Assembly: GCA_903834185.1 (NCBI GenBank)
Contig: CAILHX010000031.1
Span: forward strand, 1-64,000
Direction: 5' to 3'
DNA: 64,000 bases
Origin: an uncultured Methylophilaceae bacterium
GTDB lineage: Bacteria; Pseudomonadota; Gammaproteobacteria; Burkholderiales; Methylophilaceae
This document shows positions 39,309-43,385 of the stretch, piece by piece (position 1 is the first letter of the stretch; every line of letters starts with the position of its first letter). The notes under the pieces are model-generated. The model did no database searches. It was given only the letters and a program-made list of their open reading frames with translations, and was not told the DNA's origin. A program made the translations under genes and the position numbers.

Positions 39309-39824
39309 TTATTTGCCTGACCCTTTGCAGCAACGACGGCTCAGCAAATAATCCAGACTGACTTTGCCTGCACCGCCAAACATCAACGGCAGGAACATCA
39401 CGATAAAGATCAGCGGTAATTTATAGTTGCCAAAACCATCGTTGGTCTCATCAATGATGCGATAACCACGCCAAAGCTCACCCAATGTATGCCAGTGCAT
39501 AGGCCAGTGCACGGTGGAAATGGCGACGACAGTCAATATAATCAGAGAAATGCTGGCAAAACGAACTGCCAGACCCAGCACTAATGCCACGGCTCCAAGT
39601 AATTCGAACCAGGTAGAGATTGCCCAGCTGACATTGGCGGAAACCAGATTGAACGGGAATGGGAATGTCAGGTCGGCGAACCAGTTCTCGCCGGTATATT
39701 TCTCATAGCCCGCCTCACCGTACTCCCAACCCAATATCAGACGTAACGCCAATGGCGGAATGATAGGTGCGAGGAACTCTGCGATGCGCACCAGTTTGCA
39801 GTAAAGCGATACTAATTTATGCAT
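39309..39824 (-). CDS. DoxX family membrane protein (HvfD-like)
   Basis: A 171-aa protein with four predicted TM helices (about 15-33, 65-85, 88-105, 130-150) of the DoxX family. DoxX proteins regularly occur as the last gene of hvfABCD/bufferin operons, where the role is unknown. It overlaps the DUF2063 gene by 8 bp, so translation is coupled. The long loop WHTLGELWRGYRIIDETNDG and a Cys pair at the C-terminus (RRCCKGSGK) are notable. It is the terminal gene of the operon starting at the sigma factor. Confidence 0.85.
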   Translation of the reverse strand: MHKLVSLYCKLVRIAEFLAPIIPPLALRLILGWEYGEAGYEKYTGENWFADLTFPFPFNLVSANVSWAISTWFELLGAVALVLGLAVRFASISLIILTVVAISTVHWPMHWHTLGELWRGYRIIDETNDGFGNYKLPLIFIVMFLPLMFGGAGKVSLDYLLSRRCCKGSGK

Positions 39825-40608
39825 TTTTTTCTCCCTTGTTTGTAACTGCTAGAACACCAATAATCACTCCTTCGGCACGCAACCCTTCCATGATCTCCAG
39901 CCCACCAGCAATCACCACTTGCGGTTTCGGATGCTGCATCTCTGCCGCAATCTGTCGCAAGGCCTGCTCTCCGCTCAATTCCCCGGTTGTTAACAATGCC
40001 AGCAAACGAGCGCTGACCGGATTGAGCACGATGAACTTCACTATGTCGTCTGCGCGCCGGAATACCACGATATGAGTGGGCTGGTCATCAGGGTGCTCGG
40101 GCTGATGCCGCTTATTAATGCGGTGCACGGCATACGGGTAGCATAACAACGCCAATGCCGGAGCCAGCACCGGGCACCTAACCAGCAATTCACCAGGCGC
40201 AGACTCGGCATCATGCTCACCGGCAACGGCATCAGAAAACGCCAGCGCCATTTCTATCCATTCATAATGCGCAAGACTATAAAGAAATGCCGGCGGTTTT
40301 TCTTTTATTGTTTCATGCTCCTGCGTCGTTTCCAGCCAGCGCAAAAACTCTTCGGGTATCTGGCGGAAGAGCGGCGAGGTACACTGATGTTCGATAAAGA
40401 AGCGGCGCAGCAATCTGTTCCAGAGCCGCACTCCCAATATGCTGCGGCACACAGGGAAGCATGCGGTCACGACCTCGGCCAGATTGTTGAATACGATCTC
40501 GGTATACACCCCCATGCGGCGGGCGTTCACACCTTTTGGTCTGGAAACATGCAGCGGATCGCGGATGTGGCGCGTGAATTGCCGCTGATAACTTTGCAAT
40601 GCACTCAT
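39817..40608 (-). CDS. DUF2063 partner protein of MNIO maturase (HvfC/BufC-like)
   Basis: A 263-aa protein. The N-terminal domain (about 5-100, [14 protein letters not shown] and [14 protein letters not shown]) is the DUF2063 putative DNA-binding-like domain, thought to recognise the RiPP precursor in MNIO systems. The C-terminal half (about 150-250) is a winged-helix-like domain. Start ATG overlaps the hvfB stop by 4 bp (ATGA). By analogy with MbnC and BufC it should form a heterodimer with the DUF692 enzyme. Confidence 0.87.
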
Positions 40609-41450
40609 GCCGCAACCCGCCCGCGCACGGCGTGATGTCGCTGCAAGCGGGCGATATGTTCGATCTCGGCAGCCAGTTCGGTCAATGGCGGGATATTCAT
40701 GTCGCGTTCAAGCAGCGTCGGTGCCACCCCGAACAAGCGGTAGGTCTCATCCAGCAGATCCCACACCGGATCCAGCACCGGCGCGCCATGCGTATCTATC
40801 GCCAGGTGTTCGGCTTCGCGCAGATGCCCGGCAGTATGAATATAGACGATGCGCTCTCCCGGCAGGCCGCGCAACATGGCGAGCGGGTCGAAGCCAAAAT
40901 TGATGCTGTTGACGTAGATATTGTTAACGTCCAGATGCAGGTCGCAATCTGCCTCGCTAAGTACAGCGCGGATAAAAGCGAGCTCGTCCATCTCGGTGAT
41001 GGGCGCACGCACGTAATAGGAAGCGTTCTCTACCGCGATGCGTCGTTCAAGGATGTCCTGTGTGCGACGTATGCGCGCTACCACATGCTTGACCGCTTCT
41101 TCGGTAAAAGGAATCGGCAGCAGGTCGTACAGATAGCCATCGGCACTGCAATAGCTTAAGTGCTCGGTATAAAGTGGAATTCTGTGCTGATCGAGAAAGC
41201 TTTTGACACGCTGCAAGAACACCTCGTTCAGCGGATCAGGCCCGCCGAGAGACAATGACAGGCCATGTGCTGCAAGCGGATAGCGTTCGGCGAACCAGGC
41301 CAGTTGTTTAGCGGAACGTCCGCCCACCTCTATCCAGTTTTCCGGCGCAATCTCGAAAAAATCGATACAGGCAGGAACACCGGCCTGAAGCTGAGGCATC
41401 AAGTCTCGCTTCAGGCCGAGCCCTGCGCCGAAAAGCGCTTTGGCATTCAT
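40605..41450 (-). CDS. MNIO-type (DUF692) peptide maturase, HvfB/BufB-like
   Basis: A 281-aa TIM-barrel enzyme of the multinuclear non-heme iron oxidase family (MbnB, BufB, HvfB). Likely iron ligands are in HGLSLSLGG (62-70), EHLSY (96-100), EN at 141-142, DVNNIYVN (184-191), HTAGH (215-219) and DTHG (229-232). The family oxidatively remodels cysteines of short secreted peptides into copper-binding groups. It lies 40 bp downstream of the Cys-rich precursor gene, its probable substrate, and overlaps the DUF2063 gene. Which cysteines it modifies here is unknown. Confidence 0.9.
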
Positions 41451-41490: not shown

Positions 41491-41829
41491 TTAGTGCTTG
41501 CAGTTGCCTTCTTTAGCCTTCTTCATGTCAGCGCTGCAAGAACCATCCGCTTTCTTGCCATCTGCTGCGGCTGCAGCAGCACAGCAAGAACCATCGGCTT
41601 TTTTCATGCTTGCGCCACCAGCACAGCAGGAACCATCCGTTTTCTTTTTGTTGGCACCGCACTTGCCAGTACCGCATTTGCCATCTTTGGCGTCAGCGAC
41701 CTGATAACCTTTGGCCAGCGCATTCATGGCGAACGGGTTTTGGTCTGCATTCGCGAGTGGGGAGAATGCCAGAGCCGTGGCAAAAGCGCCACCCAGAACT
41801 ACTGCCAGAGTTTTTTGTTGTGCGTTCAT
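41491..41829 (-). CDS. Cys-rich secreted RiPP precursor, HvfA/BufA-like
   Basis: A 112-aa peptide with a signal peptide (cleavage near PLANADQ) and a Lys/Gly/Cys-rich core of about 65 residues. The core begins DGKCGTGKCG, the canonical HvfA-type motif, then continues with three imperfect repeats: KKTDGSCC, KKADGSCC and KKADGSC, ending EGNCKH; eight cysteines in total. The repeats are visible in DNA as copies of AAGAACCATC plus an A/T-rich stretch (about 41535-41650). A strong AAGGAG site precedes the ATG. The neighbouring MNIO enzyme and DUF2063 partner are the expected maturation pair. Likely role: periplasmic copper or other metal buffering. Confidence 0.85.
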   Translation of the reverse strand: MNAQQKTLAVVLGGAFATALAFSPLANADQNPFAMNALAKGYQVADAKDGKCGTGKCGANKKKTDGSCCAGGASMKKADGSCCAAAAAADGKKADGSCSADMKKAKEGNCKH

Positions 41830-41864: not shown

Positions 41865-42113
41865 TCAATGTAGATGTTGATGCAATGCTTCACGTATGAC
41901 TTCACGCGCGGAATTCGACAGTACGACATTGCTGTCATTTTCCGCGTGGCGGGATTGCTGCTTCAAAACTGCGCGCAGCAAACGCAGCTGGGCGACGAAC
42001 TGCCGGCAAGGATCGCAAATGCCCAAGTGCATCCACACGCTGATACGCTCCCGCAATGTCAGCGGACGATCCATGGCTTGAGACGCGATACGACTAATTT
42101 CCTTGCAATTCAC
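41865..42113 (-). CDS. Zinc-finger anti-sigma factor
   Basis: Small soluble protein (82 aa) with the anti-sigma zinc-finger signature: the N-terminal NCKEISRIASQAMDRPLTLRER helix, then HLGICDPCRQF (HxxxCxxC). No transmembrane segment is seen, so it is cytosolic like ChrR/RsrA-type regulators. The start is taken as GTG at 42113, with AGGAG 7 bp upstream and 10 bp after the sigma stop. An in-frame ATG at 42146 would overlap the sigma gene but has a poorly spaced site. It probably inhibits the adjacent sigma factor and releases it on metal or oxidative stress. Confidence 0.85.
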   Translation of the reverse strand: MNCKEISRIASQAMDRPLTLRERISVWMHLGICDPCRQFVAQLRLLRAVLKQQSRHAENDSNVVLSNSAREVIREALHQHLH

Positions 42114-42123
42114 TTCCAGTCTC

Positions 42124-42747
42124 CTAAGAATCGAGCGCCTTATCATGAACTCCCCTTTCCGCCCAGTGCATTTCCACGCACTTTCGCAACCCCATACGCG
42201 AGCGATAAAGCATCACCCATGCATTGGTCGCCGTAATTTCCAGTTCCTTACATATTGTTTCATTATCTTCTTCTTCAACTTCTCTCAACATAAATAGCCG
42301 CGCCAGTTTCTTCGGCAAACGGTCCAGACAGTTTTGCAATATATGCCAGAATTGCTGCTGCTCCAACAATCTTGCAGGATCTCCCAGAGAAGACGGCTTT
42401 TCAGCCCAATGCCCGGCATCATCAAAGAACTCATCCATCCCCGGCTCCATCATTTCCTCTGCAGGGTCATCTTCATATAAAGGCTGTTCTTTCTGGGCAT
42501 GACGTATCAGGTCTACGATCTTATGTTTGAGTATGCCGGTGAGCCAGGTACGTGCGGAAGACTTTCCGGTAAAACTGCTGCTATTCTTGAGCGCAGCCAG
42601 TAAGGTTTCCTGCACCGCGTCTTCAGCCAGATGCGTGTCGCGCAAACGTACCAGTGCAAAACGATAAAGATAATCGCCATGCGCGGTAAGCCAATCATTC
42701 GGGTTGCAATCAGAGTTTTGATTTATCGTAGTAGCCATGCTGCGCAT
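42124..42747 (-). CDS. ECF-type sigma-70 family RNA polymerase sigma factor
   Basis: A 207-aa sigma factor with region 2 (WLTAHGDYLYRFALVRLRDTHLAEDAVQETLLAAL, then SARTWLTGILKHKIVDLIR) and region 4 (LPKKLARLFMLREVEEEDNETICKELEITATNAWVMLYRSRMGLRKC). A 40-residue acidic insertion lies between them. It fits the small group of ECF-like factors paired with a zinc-finger anti-sigma. First gene of the operon with the anti-sigma, HvfA-like peptide, maturase, DUF2063 and DoxX genes, so it probably controls them and itself. No convincing ribosome site before ATG 42747; ATG 42738 is an alternative. Confidence 0.88.
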   Translation of the reverse strand: MRSMATTINQNSDCNPNDWLTAHGDYLYRFALVRLRDTHLAEDAVQETLLAALKNSSSFTGKSSARTWLTGILKHKIVDLIRHAQKEQPLYEDDPAEEMMEPGMDEFFDDAGHWAEKPSSLGDPARLLEQQQFWHILQNCLDRLPKKLARLFMLREVEEEDNETICKELEITATNAWVMLYRSRMGLRKCVEMHWAERGVHDKALDS

Positions 42748-42920: not shown

Positions 42921-43385
42921 ATGACAATTCAATTTAAACATACTGCAATCGCAATCGGCGTGGCACTGGTAGCTCTTTCCGGTTCAGCATCTGCCGCAGG
43001 CGTTGGTTCTGGTGGCTACAGCGAGCTTCACACCATGGATATGATGAAGATGATAGACGCTAACGGTGACCATATGGTTTCCAAAGATGAATTCATGACT
43101 TACTACGGTTCCATTTTTGACGCTCTGGATACCGATAAGGATGGTTCTATCGATGCCAAGGAATGGGTAGGCACCAAGGGTGATAACAAGATCAGTATCG
43201 CTACCGGCGGCTTCAGTTCACAACTGCGCACATTGAAGATGATGAAGGCGATGGACACCGATGGCGACCATAAAGTCACCAAGGAAGAATTCCTGAAATA
43301 TCACGAAGGCGTATTCATGGCGATGTCCAAGAGCGGTACCGACATTGACGGTAAAGGCTGGCTGGCAAGAGCTACCGGCAACTGA
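42921..43385 (+). CDS. Secreted EF-hand calcium-binding protein
   Basis: A 154-aa protein with a signal peptide (cleavage near SASAAG). Three canonical EF-hand loops are visible: DANGDHMVSKDE (about 47-58), DTDKDGSIDAKE (about 74-85) and DTDGDHKVTKEE (about 112-123). A degenerate fourth, TDIDGKGW, lies at the C-terminus. Histidine occupies one loop position in two of them and Met-rich stretches (MDMMKMI, LKMMKAM) precede two loops, so binding of a metal other than Ca is possible. It is divergent from the ECF sigma operon and followed by a strong terminator. Confidence 0.85.
   Translation: MTIQFKHTAIAIGVALVALSGSASAAGVGSGGYSELHTMDMMKMIDANGDHMVSKDEFMTYYGSIFDALDTDKDGSIDAKEWVGTKGDNKISIATGGFSSQLRTLKMMKAMDTDGDHKVTKEEFLKYHEGVFMAMSKSGTDIDGKGWLARATGN

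Follow-up and report, generated by a model that had tools for sequence, protein, structure and literature searches.

An HvfA-like precursor with a hybrid cysteine core and an altered HvfB pocket in Methylophilaceae

The stretch of DNA analysed here, referred to as the window, comprises 64,000 nucleotides of a contig from an uncultured Methylophilaceae bacterium (CAILHX010000031.1). It carries an operon of the hvfABCX type in which an HvfA-like precursor gene stands first, followed on the same strand by the adjoining hvfB and then by hvfC and hvfX, all three of which pass their NCBIfam cut-offs (Table 1). This gene order, DoxX-like protein included, is that of HvfA-type operons, and it backs the initial annotation of the gene as a RiPP precursor of the HvfA type with a hybrid core. 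An AGGAG-like ribosome site lies directly 5' of the precursor ORF and its N-terminus is typical of a Sec signal peptide, both as judged by eye. Homologues of the precursor were found in 24 of 61 genomes of relatives at E ≤ 0.001, and matches in 103 of the 187 genomes of the Methylophilaceae search. Between the putative signal peptide and the core lies a leader-like stretch (residues 29-48) with an NPF...L..GY motif. The pattern recurs in 97 of 100 precursors from Methylophilaceae and in 109 of 137 from elsewhere, and this stretch is probably the recognition element for HvfC.

Table 1. Features of the hvf locus, in window coordinates
Feature	Position	Strand	Basis
hvfX, DoxX-like protein	39309..39824	-	NF050144, 126 bits (cut-off 80)
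hvfC, DUF2063/RRE partner protein	39817..40608	-	NF050145, 272 bits (cut-off 142)
hvfB, MNIO peptide oxidase	40605..41450	-	NF003818, 406 bits (cut-off 360); PF05114, E 4.5e-103; 3bww, E 1.8e-79
hvfA-like precursor, 112 aa	41491..41829	-	ORF, ATG start
Distal unit 6, EGNCK	41497..41511	-	translation
Imperfect tandem repeat array, period 42	41529..41646		Tandem Repeats Finder
Distal unit 5, DGSCS	41533..41547	-	translation
Distal unit 4, DGSCC	41581..41595	-	translation
Distal unit 3, DGSCC	41623..41637	-	translation
Opener units 1 and 2, DGKCG and TGKCG	41656..41685	-	translation
Leader-like stretch with NPF...L..GY motif, residues 29-48	41686..41745	-	
Putative Sec-type signal peptide, residues 1-28 (MNAQQKTLAVVLGGAFATALAFSPLANA)	41746..41829	-	by eye; putative end at ANA
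Zinc-finger anti-sigma factor	41865..42146	-	NF052368, 69 bits (cut-off 50)
ECF sigma factor, TIGR02943 family	42124..42747	-	207 bits (cut-off 162)

Immediately upstream of the precursor is an ECF sigma and anti-sigma factor pair. A sigma homologue is present in at least 85, and an anti-sigma homologue in at least 79, of 102 Methylophilaceae HvfB loci, both counts being lower bounds because the flanks are short, and the sigma factor probably regulates the hvf operon. Divergent from the sigma factor gene lies a gene for a secreted-looking EF-hand protein of 154 residues (42921-43385, + strand). This gene is also kept beside hvf in the genus mate (L209, 6988-7455), and at other loci HvfA-like domains are fused to EF-hands (e.g. 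L049 and L063); the EF-hand protein and the HvfA-like peptide may work together.

Clusters of the hvf or MNIO-PME1 kind are reported to turn the Cys of EGKCG repeats into copper-binding 5-thiooxazoles, for which the name captophorins has been proposed. At our locus an MNIO of the HvfB family lies beside the precursor, it is accompanied by a PME1 partner (DUF2063 with an RRE), and two of the six core units are Lys-Cys 5-mers, so that the precursor almost certainly belongs to this known class of thiooxazole copper metallophores, as far as sequence can assign it. As it scores under the NCBIfam HvfA cut-offs (17.3 against 95 bits for NF050188 and 15.2 against 19.5 for NF050137), we call it HvfA-like and not a member of either family. 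The closest comparison is with oxazolin, the HvfA product of the hvfABCX operon of Haemophilus influenzae, which shares the precursor, MNIO, DUF2063/RRE partner and DoxX protein, the repeated Cys core and, putatively, the N-terminal secretion signal (PMC13419390). In oxazolin, however, all six repeated Cys are modified (PMC13419390), whereas in the window core two KCG units give way to four in which position 3 is Ser or Asn and position 5 is Cys, Ser or Lys. Fontiphorin (FonA of Fontimonas thermophila) derives from a MNIO-PME1 cluster of the same Lys-Cys group, forms a 5-thiooxazole from each EGKCG-type repeat and binds copper (PMC13097082). It differs in the enzyme, FonB having Arg15 and Phe250 where the window HvfB, mapped by motif and the 3bww alignment, has Lys14 and Met251. 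Bulbicupramide (MmrA of Microbulbifer) likewise has EGKCG repeats in variable number and all six of its Cys are modified, but the available text mentions no Ser-Cys or Cys-Cys units for it (PMC12538549). The bufferins Buf1 and Buf2 share the MNIO, the DUF2063 partner and DoxX and, putatively, a Sec-type signal and a link to copper stress, although their precursors are of other families, DUF2282 or with 6/12 Cys (PMC12452194). A Buf2-like cluster (Cys-rich precursor, BufB and a DUF2063-like protein) lies near hvf in the genus mate (L209, 7581-9729); that of the window genome is on a separate contig (L208, 4485-6740), near genes for a CcdA/DsbD-like thiol transporter and a thioredoxin-like protein.

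The core reads DGKCG TGKCG ... KTDGSCC ... KADGSCC ... KADGSCS ... KEGNCKH, that is six D/E/T-G-x-Cys units of which only the first two place Lys before Cys. The openers are of the same kind as the published 5-thiooxazole sites, which are of the EGKCG type. All four distal units retain Lys at position -2, Asp or Glu at position 1, Gly at position 2 and Cys at position 4. Where the initial annotation had described a single opener with three DGSC(C/S) units, the three stand, but the opener consists of two units side by side, and a fourth distal unit, EGNCK, had been missed. The annotation had also attributed the distal units to imperfect DNA repeats, and these are real. The repeats of the core are 42-48 nucleotides long, and the array detected over them (77% matches, 11% indels) tops all 28 arrays in the window with a score of 119, the runner-up reaching 61. 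Compared without gaps over 42 nucleotides, the copies agree at 28, 26 and 25 positions, whereas control in-frame pairs drawn at random from four genes nearby (up to 20,000 pairs) agree at 11 on average and at 23 at most. The further suggestion that the repeats had expanded recently is rejected, as the copies are only 60-67% identical and use different synonymous codons (TCC and TCT for Ser, GCC and GCG before Asp).

Core and enzyme were compared over HvfB loci from three sources: the best 80 GTDB contigs, retrieved with search patterns made from the window's own HvfB; 187 Methylophilaceae genomes, 113 of them with a match at E ≤ 1e-40, BufB-type enzymes included; and 370 genomes spread evenly over the class, 119 of them with a match at E ≤ 1e-75, part of which were taken in as 30 loci (one of them the window's own) and 77 regions. 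After deduplication there remained 281 distinct HvfB, 102 from Methylophilaceae and 179 from elsewhere, this outside set being biased, by the 80 best GTDB loci that accompany the class sample, toward loci resembling the window HvfB. A precursor was found beside 237 of the 281, and 227 were counted (99 from Methylophilaceae, 128 from outside), the losses being 44 HvfB loci at which no precursor turned up within about 1 kb, 8 rows lacking an anchor motif and 2 spurious ORFs; in a smaller first count 26 of 178 rows were left out. The choice of precursor was automatic, and at one locus (L097) with two candidate ORFs it alters the units. Each Cys was counted as one unit, and the second Cys of Cys-Cys pairs is therefore included among the 558 units of the 99 Methylophilaceae precursors and the 772 of the 128 outside.

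The initial annotation had treated the hybrid core as an oddity of this gene, a view that the comparison overturns. With a strict hybrid defined as having Lys before Cys in units 1 and 2 and lacking it in most later units, 46 of 99 Methylophilaceae precursors are hybrids, as against 3 of 128 outside. In the family the first two units hold Lys at position 3 in 185 of 198 cases and mostly Gly at position 5 (147 of 198). Among the 360 units from the third onward, Asp/Glu-1 and Gly-2 are each kept in 342 and Lys(-2) in 338, while Lys-3 is found in 133 and Gly-5 in 124; at position 5, Ser, His or Asn account for 227, and Cys for two, both from the window. Outside the family Lys-3 occurs in 651 of 772 units (84%) and Gly-5 in 736 (95%). 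Position-5 entropy accordingly rises from 0.35 bits in the outside units to 1.67 in Methylophilaceae distal units, and that of Gly-2 stays low (0.54 and 0.37 bits). The hybrid core is thus a trait of the Methylophilaceae as a family, and only the Cys-Cys pairs are special to the window genome. A different hybrid core, in which EGGCS units flank a central EGKCG EGKCG pair, is seen at five Methylobacter- or Methylococcales-like loci (L068, L080, L103, L104 and L217). Literature searches covering papers without their supplements turned up no study of MNIO precursors from Methylophilaceae. Neither DGSC nor EGSC appears as a string in the main text of PMC12452194, and PMC13097082 contains no word that begins with GSC.

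The division of the core between openers and distal units would also fit a peptide in which only the two opener Cys are oxidised and the distal DGSC(C/S) units form a plain-thiol tail resembling a metallothionein, to which the Cys-Cys pairs would contribute ligands for soft metals. Besides the contrast at positions 3 and 5, the species differ in how many distal units they have and how these are spaced, and the substrate range of FonBC points the same way in part. With both repeats altered, FonBC accepted Ala, Arg or Thr at position 3 but left position-5 variants other than Ala unprocessed (PMC13097082), so that Ser, His or Cys at this position may block the reaction; FonBC did once modify a Cys-Tyr site (PMC13097082). 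Against a thiol tail, which needs neither Asp/Glu-1 nor Gly-2, is the retention of both in nearly all distal units while other flanking residues vary, together with the modification of every repeat Cys in the EGKCG peptides described in the papers cited here (PMC13097082, PMC13419390, PMC12538549) and the change of HvfB pocket positions in the same family, set out below. We consider a purely thiol tail unlikely; the distal units are probably modified, to judge from their conserved frame.

The window HvfB is probably an active enzyme, since all 29 polar columns that are at least 98% conserved outside Methylophilaceae are intact in it. Its pocket comprises Lys14, Arg15, Phe185, Asp250, which is catalytic by homology, and Met251 at the gate. 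To guard against mistaking overall divergence of the Methylophilaceae enzymes for a specific change, we compared the 103 columns that are at least 90% conserved outside, of which only three, 14, 185 and 251, are kept by fewer than 10% of the family, with Arg replaced by Lys at 14, His by Phe at 185 and the gate residue lost at 251. Residue 185 (window 40896-40898, - strand) is His in 94% of the outside enzymes and Phe in 102 of 102 from Methylophilaceae. The gate residue, 251, comes directly after the invariant Asp250. Of the 179 outside enzymes 172 have Phe or Tyr there; within the family Phe remains in 1 of 102, the others having Ser, Asn, Thr, Ile, Leu, Ala, Val or Met, of which Met is seen in the window enzyme alone (1 of 281). 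Columns 14 and 251 match FonB Arg15 and Phe250, as mapped by motif and the 3bww alignment without the FonB sequence, and the chance that at least two of three FonB residues (Arg15, Arg16 and Phe250) fall among the lost columns is about 0.002 if shared descent is ignored. In the FonB model substrate Glu1 lies between Arg15 and Arg16, and Phe250, beside the catalytic Asp249, touches substrate Lys3 and Gly5 (PMC13097082). The Phe250 contacts are thus to positions 3 and 5, the very two that are relaxed in the Methylophilaceae distal units.

The association extends in part beyond the family, where, of the six loci whose gate is non-aromatic, five have at least one unit with a residue other than Gly at position 5, as against 12 of 122 loci with Phe or Tyr (Fisher p 0.00013, uncorrected for descent). 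Likewise, the only Methylophilaceae locus to retain the gate Phe (L026) has Gly-5 in all five of its units. Gate loss is nevertheless not sufficient for relaxation of position 5, as 25 of 98 Methylophilaceae loci without the Phe keep Gly-5 in every unit, nor is it necessary, as EGGCS or EGACS units occur alongside a Phe gate at the five Methylococcales-like loci. FonB variants F250A and F250D still form thiooxazole, mostly with activity similar to wild type (PMC13097082), indicating that the gate is a modest determinant. In trees of 152 and 227 loci, built with columns 14 and 251 omitted, tests of independent pairs for the link between gate and substrate had two pairs on well-supported branches and six on all, and gave no significance; within Methylophilaceae the direction agrees (p = 0.25). 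A phylogenetically independent proof was set aside, there being too few independent changes. With the gate lost in what is essentially a single evolutionary event, the link is no more than suggestive, and that HvfB pocket and substrate changed together in Methylophilaceae is, on these sequence comparisons, likely but unproven.

Overall, the explanation to which we incline, if with restraint, is that of an HvfA-like, captophorin-class precursor acted on by an HvfB with a remodelled pocket, the distal units being substrates. By analogy with the characterised systems, the RRE domain of HvfC would bind the leader stretch, and HvfB, using multinuclear iron and O2, would take four hydrogens from each target Cys to give a 5-thiooxazole. 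The secreted product would serve as a stress buffer by binding Cu(I), probably controlled by the adjacent ECF sigma/anti-sigma pair. Loss of the Phe250 equivalent, replacement of the Arg15 equivalent by Lys and of His185 by Phe would have remodelled the pocket so that it could admit a target Cys flanked on either side by small or polar residues. The distal units, of the form [D/E]G[S/N/A/K]C[S/G/H], would then be genuine HvfB substrates, and in the window genome position 5 has turned into Cys twice.

These Cys-Cys units were singled out by the initial annotation as distinctive, and they are: with one genome per species sampled, they occur in the window genome only, in 1 of the 237 precursors found beside the 281 distinct HvfB. 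No other Cys-Cys precursor was present among the 237 of the Methylophilaceae and class samples, nor, the window's aside, any among ORFs with at least three precursor motifs in all 319 loci, and a plasmid search returned one partial match (38% cover). Matches at two loci (L214 and L261) were rejected as lying ahead of the mature precursor, and one at L091 as belonging to an ORF without any precursor motif. In the nearest relative, the genus mate G001, Ser or His stands where the window has the second Cys. The initial annotation had named orthologues with unmodified and unconserved DGSCC units as evidence that would count against it; the second Cys is indeed unconserved, but the D/E-G-x-C frame is conserved. 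Taken as a whole, its observation is confirmed and its interpretation borne out in part.

Such rarity is what would be expected if a Cys-rich tail of low complexity were drifting neutrally, a Cys-Cys pair having arisen by chance and been copied to a second unit without any function of its own, an account that is compatible with modification of the first Cys. Both pairs share the codons TGC TGT GCT, and TGC GGT becomes TGC TGT by a single base change (Gly GGT to Cys TGT). The frame around both pairs is nevertheless intact, with no stop or frameshift, and a single genome cannot tell drift from selection; we regard drift as a real possibility, though a somewhat doubtful one. The first Cys of each pair lies within the full K-x-x-D-G-x-C frame and the second does not, its own context, G-S-C-C-A, lacking both the acidic residue and the Gly. 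Oxidation of both to tandem thiooxazoles, for which one might cite the action of MNIO enzymes on repeated Cys and the unique gate Met of the window HvfB, is therefore hard to reconcile with the missing Asp/Glu-1 and Gly-2 of the second Cys, and a ring there would need the peptide bond adjoining the first ring. To our knowledge no adjacent thiooxazole pair is known, and we hold this outcome very improbable. The reading of the pair that we tentatively prefer, as plausible but short of probable, is that the first Cys becomes a 5-thiooxazole and the second stays a free thiol.

If this is true, each Cys-Cys unit would set a thiooxazole thiolate beside a thiol, giving two adjacent sulphur donors, and the variant would offer a clear-cut example in which thiooxazole and thiol ligands are mixed. 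It is a more speculative and rather improbable extension that loss of the Phe gate in Methylophilaceae let the residue after Cys (Ser, His or, here, Cys) become a second metal ligand, creating thiooxazole-plus-side-chain sites of which the Cys-Cys units would be thiooxazole-thiol pairs. The selection of Cys by a thiooxazole-forming MNIO has so far, in the literature available to us, been probed in detail in one enzyme, FonB. The Methylophilaceae provide a natural experiment on the same question, as a pocket residue has been lost in this family and the two substrate positions in contact with it are relaxed.
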